This document shows, piece after piece, positions 38,721 to 39,611 of a stretch of DNA of 39,611 nucleotides. The stretch is from Acidobacteriota bacterium (lineage in GTDB: Bacteria; Acidobacteriota; Terriglobia; Acidiferrales; UBA7541): contig PMES01000046.1 in the NCBI GenBank assembly GCA_003154775.1, forward strand, positions 621 to 40,231. Reading direction: 5' to 3'. The notes under the pieces were generated by a model, which saw nothing but the letters and a program-made list of their open reading frames with translations, was not told where the DNA came from and ran no database searches. The position numbers and the translations under genes were made by a program. Each line of letters opens with the position of its first letter. Position 1 is the stretch's first letter.

Positions 38721-38924
38721 GATTTTATCTCCTGGGGAAAACGGCGAACCGACCGACGCGCAGGTCGCATTCGTCATTATCAAAGTGTGGAGCGACTCCG
38801 GCGTTCGCTCGCGCCGGCAGCCTGAGTGTACCTCAATTAAGGGTAGTCGATGCACCAGTCATCCTATCCACAGCCCCCGACCAGCCACCTGATTCTTCGC
38901 TTGAGGGCGCCCTTTTCCTCCGAA
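38721..38924. other. Upstream region of the GH42 gene
   Basis: About 200 bases between the GH42 start and the first REP hairpin. No consensus promoter or gene was recognised. The longer gap 38721-39148 is otherwise filled by the REP cluster. Confidence 0.5.
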
Positions 38925-39143
38925 GCGCCGGAGGCGCGCCACACGTTAGCCCAGCCCGTAAGGGCTGGGTACATGGTGTATAACAATTCCTAGCGCCGGA
39001 GGCGCGAAACAGGTTAGCCCAGGGCGTAAGCCCTGGGTACGTGCCCCACACAAAAATTCCCAGCGCCGGAGGCGCGCCACAGGTTAGCCCAGCCCGTAAG
39101 GGCTGGGTACATGGTGTATAACGATTCCTAGCGCCGGAGGCGC
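38925..39143 (+). repeat. REP/BIME-like hairpin cluster (three and a half units)
   Basis: Four copies of the palindrome GCGCCGGAGGCGC start at 38925, 38993, 39063 and 39131 (period 68-70). The first three are each followed by a second hairpin: eight-base perfect stem, GTAA loop, at 38950-38969, 39018-39037 and 39088-39107. The second unit has CCCAGGGC/GCCCTGGG where the others have CCCAGCCC/GGGCTGGG, a compensated change. Linkers after units 1 and 3 are nearly identical (TACATGGTGTATAAC). The fourth palindrome runs into the transposase gene. Confidence 0.88.
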
Positions 39144-39151
39144 GGCACTTG
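39136..39151 (+). promoter_or_regulatory. Shine-Dalgarno of the transposase inside a REP hairpin
   Basis: GGAGG (39136-39140) lies in the loop and 3' arm of the last REP palindrome, eight bases before the TTG start at 39149. Folding of the hairpin would hide the ribosome site. A Shine-Dalgarno at ideal spacing supports the TTG start. Confidence 0.65.
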
Positions 39152-39592
39152 TCCCACACATACGCGCAAAACCTGCTCCATATTGTCTTCAGCACCAAAG
39201 ATCGCCGCAAGGCGATCTCCCCAGAATTTCAGCCGCGCCTCTGGTCCTACGCCTCTGGCATCTGCCACAACCTCGAAATTCTTGTCCACGCCATTGGCGG
39301 CATGGAGGACCACATCCACCTCCTAATCCAGATACCGCCGAGCTTGCCCGTGGCCAAGGCGGTCCTCGCCATCAAATCCAATTCTTCCCGATGGGCCAAT
39401 GAGGAGGGTCACAATTTCGCCTGGCAACAGGGCTATGGAGCCTTCAGCGTGAGCAGTTCCAACGCTCCCGCCGTAATTCAATACATCCGAACGCAACAAG
39501 CGCATCACAAGAAAATGCGTTTCGAGCCGGAGTTTCTTGCCCTATTGAAGAAGCACGGTGTGGAATTTGATCCGAAATTTGTCTTCGGCTAG
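39149..39592 (+). CDS. REP-associated IS200-like (Y1, HUH) transposase
   Basis: 147-residue Y1_Tnp-family protein. The N-terminus YAQNLLHIVFSTKDRR is typical. The HUH metal motif is H55-I-H57 in EDHIHLLIQ, and the catalytic Tyr is Y112 in VIQYIRTQQAHH. Length and motifs are complete, so it is probably functional. The start is TTG 39149; the next in-frame Met is after the HUH-proximal region. The REP hairpin cluster immediately upstream places it among REP-associated tyrosine transposases (RAYTs), single-copy proteins that recognise REP hairpins in single-stranded DNA. No downstream REP is visible before the window ends. Confidence 0.88.
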   Translation: MSHTYAQNLLHIVFSTKDRRKAISPEFQPRLWSYASGICHNLEILVHAIGGMEDHIHLLIQIPPSLPVAKAVLAIKSNSSRWANEEGHNFAWQQGYGAFSVSSSNAPAVIQYIRTQQAHHKKMRFEPEFLALLKKHGVEFDPKFVFG

Positions 39593-39611
39593 CCTGACTT
39601 CCGCGGTCGAA

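Follow-up and report, generated by a model that had tools for sequence, protein, structure and literature searches.

In the insertion sequence IS200 of Salmonella, a stem-loop in the 5' leader is described as sequestering the ribosome-binding site (RBS) of tnpA, and the element combines this leader hairpin, a long one, with an antisense RNA (PMC12594629). The element described here shares with IS200 a Y1-transposase gene, a leader stem-loop over the RBS and a low expected translation (PMC12594629). It differs from IS200 in that the hairpin holding the Shine-Dalgarno sequence (SD), 13 nt long, is itself part of a terminal inverted repeat, of which it forms the inner hairpin; this repeat is also dispersed as solo ends. 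Another comparison is provided by ISPpu9 of Pseudomonas putida, whose transposase is of a different family, IS110. That transposase gene, too, is reported to be controlled by structure in the mRNA 5'-UTR, and the element is tied to REP sequences, but ISPpu9 has a long 5'-UTR and two small RNAs and is inserted into REPs rather than flanked by REPs of its own (PMC8450116).

For REP-associated tyrosine transposases (RAYTs), a proposal that REP hairpins lower RAYT expression via the mRNA is found in the discussion of Di Nocera 2013 (PMC3733652), and the general idea of such hairpins lowering transposase translation is thus already in print. The same paper describes TIRtrons/TIRYTs, which likewise combine tyrosine transposase genes with terminal inverted repeats, some in dispersed families, and which occur in Acidobacteria too. 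TIRYTs probably correspond to subclass 2.1, with an NP-type tyrosine motif (PMC6006769), whereas the protein studied here has the motif Y---Q--HH; the acidobacterial TIRYTs of PMC3733652 enter this comparison by their description only. A literature search that covered full texts in part returned no prior description of an SD inside a terminal hairpin.

The palindrome and its transposase gene

We analysed a stretch of acidobacterial DNA of 39,611 bases (the window). The palindrome GCGCCGGAGGCGC occurs near the end of the window in four exact copies, starting at 38925, 38993, 39063 and 39131. With one mismatch allowed there are five matches in the 39,611 bases against 0.26 expected, and none of 100 shuffles reached five. 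The original prediction was that the last copy supplies a GGAGG eight bases before the TTG start of a RAYT gene, and in position and spacing this is exact: the GGAGG is followed by eight bases (39141-39148) and then by the start codon (39149-39151) of a Y1-transposase gene (Table 1). The start call is sound, because the start codons of relatives (ATG, GTG or TTG) align there and TTG 39149 is the earliest ATG, GTG or TTG of the tnpA frame.

Table 1. Features at the left end of the element (coordinates of the window)
Feature	Position	Strand	Basis
Left-end unit 1: hairpin of outer type (38925-38937), linker of 12 nt, hairpin A, spacer with TATAAC box	38924-38991	+	direct repeat D1
RF01687 in unit 1	38924-38969	-	56.2 bits against a cut-off of 37
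Left-end unit 2: same plan, other hairpin A (CCCAGGG..CCCTGGG), spacer without TATAAC box	38992-39061	+	sequence, repeat
RF01687 in unit 2	38992-39037	-	covariance-model match
Left-end unit 3: hairpin 39063-39075, hairpin A 39088-39107, spacer	39062-39130	+	repeat, RF01687
RF01687 in unit 3	39062-39107	-	covariance-model match
TATAAC, candidate -10 box between hairpins A and B	39117-39122	+	sequence, predicted
Inner terminal hairpin B, GCGCC-GGA-GGCGC (13 nt)	39131-39143	+	sequence; kept in 13 of the 15 close genes, of which the window gene is one
Shine-Dalgarno GGAGG, made up of the triloop and the two adjoining bases of the 3' arm	39136-39140	+	sequence, homolog leaders
tnpA, 147-aa Y1 (HUH) transposase, IS200/IS605 type, TTG start	39149-39592	+	profile and motif matches

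What kind of transposase does this gene encode? The product matches Pfam PF01797 (Y1_Tnp; E 1.6e-26, 93.2 bits against a cut-off of 23), and its best match in the PDB is the IS608 TnpA (2a6m, E 1e-6). It carries DHIH at residue 54 and the catalytic-tyrosine motif YIRTQQAHH at residue 112, and residues H55, H57, Y112 and Q116 are invariant across 15 aligned sequences. The RAYT label is unsupported, because the protein fails the curated model for REP-associated tyrosine transposases (NF047646, 23.9 bits against a cut-off of 80) and has the motif Y---Q--HH; it passes the model for IS200/IS605 transposases (NF033573, 77.3 bits against a cut-off of 55). The class 2 tyrosine motif Y[IV]xx(x)NP, which ends in NP (PMC6006769, Table 1), is absent from the window protein and was found in none of its 185 homologs, and RAYT membership was rejected. 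The signature Y---Q--HH is present in the window protein and in 180 of the 185 homologs, the set that was kept after nine loci had been dropped (three with a missing N-terminus, five duplicates and one without a start). Y---Q--HH is given as the signature of TnpA-Y1 subclass 1.2 (Quentin 2018, PMC6006769), and by its motifs the TnpA of the element is subclass 1.2-like, sharing with that subclass DH[IV]H, WQ, Y---Q--HH, a length of about 148 aa and a low copy number.

Terminal inverted repeats and the RF01687 motif

From the outside inwards, the left end of the element consists of the outer hairpin, hairpin A, a spacer, the inner hairpin B and the gene. Hairpin, 12-nt linker, hairpin A and spacer form a unit that is repeated with a period of 68-70 nt, and units 1 and 3 are 98% alike over 83 nt. 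Unit 2 has a different type of hairpin A, which is also dispersed at three other loci (L014, L020 and L021), with a similar spacer at L020; by its repeats the left end in the window resembles a mosaic in which two sub-families are combined.

In relatives this block lies on either side of the gene as an inverted pair, the right end being a mirror image of the left; the terminal inverted repeats are clear on both sides in L054, L055 and L025. Upstream flanks aligned to inverted downstream flanks in 102 of the 145 homologs tested (median 88 nt) at a score of at least 40, the largest shuffled score being 33. Subclass 1.2, in contrast, is described as mostly from Cyanobacteria and Bacteroidetes and as generally without typical terminal IS200 structures (PMC6006769); given the word "generally", this difference alone is no reason to exclude membership. 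For the window tnpA the left end alone is visible, as just 19 nt of contig follow the stop codon (39593-39611). By eye these 19 nt are unlike the way in which right ends begin in relatives; that of the window copy is unseen, lost or diverged.

Outer hairpin, linker and hairpin A together match the Rfam motif RF01687 (Acido-Lenti-1). The matches lie on the minus strand and span model positions 1-46, with 58.2, 56.2 and 55.9 bits against a gathering cut-off of 37. The genome to which the window belongs has 21 RF01687 matches, 19 of them above the cut-off and three in the window, and one full-length transposase copy. We searched 80 chosen loci, a subset of all homolog loci, and found RF01687 within 150 nt of tnpA in 43 and none within that distance in the other 37 (L147 included). 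Its orientation there is that to be expected for terminal repeats: matches upstream of tnpA lie on the minus strand (32 of 35) and those downstream on the plus strand (25 of 28), with 24 other matches elsewhere in the loci. In a mainly Bacteroidota set, 16 of 18 rows had no RF01687 near tnpA, the exceptions being L156 and L173. Among 396 genomes of the phylum, in which TnpA was counted at E 1e-10 with at most 15 candidates scored per genome, 69 had both RF01687 and TnpA, 13 TnpA only, 27 RF01687 only and 287 neither (Fisher p 4e-41, which is no measure of independent events because the genomes are related).

Based on the inverted flanks in relatives and the orientation of RF01687 near tnpA, the best reading of the repeat in the window is that it constitutes the element's terminal inverted repeat, which also occurs in dispersed form as solo ends. 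The palindrome and its copies, originally taken for REPs, are real, but the name has to be corrected, since relatives have the palindrome as inner hairpin within their terminal inverted repeats. RF01687 is tabulated as an RNA, not as cis-regulatory, in Weinberg 2010 (PMC2864571), and a 2026 paper states that little is known of its function (PMC13298647). Here, differing from its published listing, it behaves like a transposon end, and RF01687 annotated as a small RNA near a Y1-transposase gene is probably a mobile-element end. In the same search, with full texts covered in part, no prior report identifying RF01687 as a transposon end was found. Should transposon ends be what RF01687 marks, then the motif may itself be the trace of a mobile element.

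Two further loci are of note. At L014 (G000:C15:168-213) the spacer is nearly identical to that of the window (GTATAACGATTCCT) and is followed by an imperfect inner hairpin with the loop GTA; this copy resembles a left end that has lost its gene. L199 and L200 (G573:C7) are related tnpA genes of a single genome, separated by about 0.9 kb and alike in hairpin and start context.

Conservation and predicted folding of the leader

We compared the leaders of 15 close genes, at least 57% identical and with a readable leader and N-terminus (the window gene counted, six from one genome). Hairpin B stands 5-6 nt upstream of the start in 13 of the 15 and contains GGAGG in 11 of these 13 and GTAGGTG in the other two; the remaining two of the 15 have no such hairpin. 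A palindrome half overlapping the SD, for which the original prediction proposed looking in the clade, is therefore common in it. Leaders without the repeat at the start, named there as refuting the idea, do exist and tell in part against it: two of the 15 close genes (L024 and L058) lack the hairpin, and in many distant homologs hairpin B lies farther upstream, in some together with a separate SD. Of all 185 homologs, 110 have a GC-rich hairpin no more than 45 nt from the start, and in the other 75 none was detected over that distance.

The arms of the hairpin vary in step (GCGCC/GGCGC, GCCCC/GGGGC, GCACC/GGTGC and, farther out, GTCCC/GGGAC and GCTCC/GGAGC). Among 18 distinct cores we counted 21 double changes, against a shuffled mean of 4.9 and a largest shuffled value of 10, in a test that leans towards structure because the cores had been picked for pairing. 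Recurrence in relatives and these compensating arm changes rule out a chance overlap of palindrome and SD.

Where is the GGAGG found? In the leader hairpins its presence depends on the distance to the start codon: 17 of 26 hairpins have it at 4-7 nt, four of 26 at 8-11 nt, six of 55 farther away and none of three closer (4-7 nt versus farther, Fisher p 1e-6, relatedness not removed). The right-end partners of hairpins at 4-11 nt carry it in only 6 of 46 cases. When left and right ends were compared with class relatives added, GGAGG was at the left only in 14 and at the right only in one (p 0.001); in an earlier, smaller sample of 146 homologs the p value was 0.07. The inner hairpins of 18 dispersed ends in the genome of the window, whose loops were read by eye, have the loop GTA in 14, GGA in two, AGA in one and none in one. 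Because GGAGG is concentrated in the copy beside the start codon and rarer in the right-end twins and in dispersed inner hairpins, these comparisons of sequence show SD use, though not regulation; the difference in loop between the two ends could also reflect DNA recognition instead of SD use. In a tree of 181 leaders the full SD-hairpin arrangement is present in 20, with at least eight gains or losses on well-supported branches. Tree-aware pairing gave seven independent pairs, a mean of 3.1 associating GGAGG with nearness and 0.1 against, and was not significant (median p 0.25). At the level of sequence, then, the comparisons establish the anatomy of the left end, its conservation, the covariation of the arms and the placing of GGAGG at SD spacing.

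We then consider what the hairpin would do in RNA. For the 20 SD-hairpin leaders the predicted cost of opening the SD has a median of 5.7 kcal/mol, and 2.8 kcal/mol for a transcript starting at GGAGG; the 5' arm is thus predicted to roughly double the cost. In a first sample, the opening cost was 5.7 kcal/mol in nine leaders, as against 3.85 kcal/mol in a group of 57 homologs that have a different SD-like match (p 0.0015); this comparison flatters the 57, as their matches are mostly only 4 nt long and so cost less to open. Folded to +45, the 20 leaders mask the SD by 3.4-6.9 kcal/mol, so that the predicted masking is modest.

That the hairpin might fold in the transcript had been part of the original prediction, and in the folding models the simple hairpin dominates in most leaders, whereas in the window's own genus it has rivals among other pairings. 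The simple hairpin has a mean pair probability of at least 0.87 in 15 of the 20 leaders and of less than 0.3 in the other five, namely the window gene (0.18), its three close kin L177, L178 and L179, and L205. In these five, rival pairings are predicted to mask the SD instead (3.4-6.9 kcal/mol). For the window leader to +45, the hairpin alone is worth -7.1 kcal/mol and SD opening costs 5.3 kcal/mol; a separate folding also gave another fold than the simple hairpin. When the window gene was folded to +150, a long-range pairing of 39129-39146 with 39232-39249 raised SD opening to 17.2 kcal/mol. Such leader-to-coding pairing was rejected as a conserved device, the other 19 SD-hairpin leaders giving only 1.8-7.8 kcal/mol.

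The start of the transcript can be placed only by prediction. A strict sigma-70 scan requiring a -35 returned no sites; a classical promoter was rejected, and we claim only a -10-like box. Scored against E. coli frequencies, -10-like boxes are better in left than in right spacers across 97 homolog pairs (window gene excluded, p 0.0005); a score of 5 was reached in 22 of the 97 left and 11 of the 97 right spacers, most left spacers having no good box on this scale. The good boxes lie at a modal gap of 4 nt before hairpin B, and the TATAAC of the window ends 8 nt before it. From this box, the window transcript would start just before hairpin B and its leader would be little more than the hairpin, 5 nt and the start codon, with the whole hairpin included in the mRNA.

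Possible roles of the hairpin

What, then, does the hairpin do? By analogy with IS200, we consider it somewhat probable that a terminal hairpin has been co-opted as an SD-masking leader that keeps TnpA translation low. On this reading the palindrome belongs, as inner hairpin B, to the left terminal inverted repeat that bounds a small element of IS200/IS605 type. The outer hairpin comes first in this element, then hairpin A, a spacer holding a -10-like box, hairpin B and, after another 5 nt, tnpA. In the clade of the window, hairpin B provides the SD with its loop and 3' arm, so that one 13-nt palindrome is a transposon end in DNA and a ribosome-binding site in RNA. In the mRNA, the arms or competing leader pairings would partly mask the SD and lead to low TnpA translation, as with the leader stem-loop of IS200. 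Masking may thus lower translation, and the arrangement may persist for that reason. The arrangement fits self-limited translation as reported for IS200, and this part of the original prediction gains from the leader hairpin kept in close genes, mostly with its GGAGG, from the covarying arms and from the predicted effect of the 5' arm on opening; promoter position and opening cost are themselves predictions.

Alternatively, the hairpin could be purely a DNA feature, serving recognition of the left end, with its GG-rich 3' arm used as SD and no regulation in RNA. The same hairpin does occur at the outer position and in dispersed copies that no tnpA follows, GGA loops are also present among the dispersed copies, and both the modest masking and the five leaders in which the simple hairpin is not favoured speak for this reading. 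Against this stands the concentration of GGAGG beside the start codon and its scarcity in right-end twins and dispersed inner hairpins, and we regard a role in DNA only as possible but unlikely. In IS10 and IS50, transcripts entering from outside are masked, which guards against read-through. A similar guard, with outside transcripts carrying the whole, masked hairpin and the element's own promoter starting within the 5' arm to leave the SD open, would suit those homologs with the modal 4-nt gap, in which +1 would fall about three bases into the 5' arm. It is at odds with the window itself, where the predicted start leaves the hairpin complete in the mRNA, and appears decidedly improbable.

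The original prediction went further and had the transposase bind its own leader hairpin as RNA, repress its translation and thereby link repeat copy number to enzyme level. Y1 transposases are known as single-stranded-DNA binders, which argues against such feedback, as do the 27 of 396 genomes that have RF01687 and no TnpA match at E 1e-10. In its favour, the leader hairpin and the end hairpin in DNA agree in sequence, and TnpA proteins of the IS200/IS605 type are described as recognising DNA end hairpins (PMC6006769). Protein-RNA feedback and the link to copy number are speculation, to which we give the least credence of all. Only slightly better, and still very improbable, is the joint proposal that the palindrome is at once a single-stranded-DNA target of the transposase, the mRNA 5' end and an RBS with TnpA-RNA feedback, and that RF01687 is a transposon DNA end in several phyla.

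The case makes the self-limitation of such elements testable with a single small reporter. As a side result, the motif RF01687 is linked with the ends of elements that carry a Y1 transposase. Where the end hairpin is also the RBS of the transposase, any change in the DNA end would simultaneously alter the translation of the enzyme.
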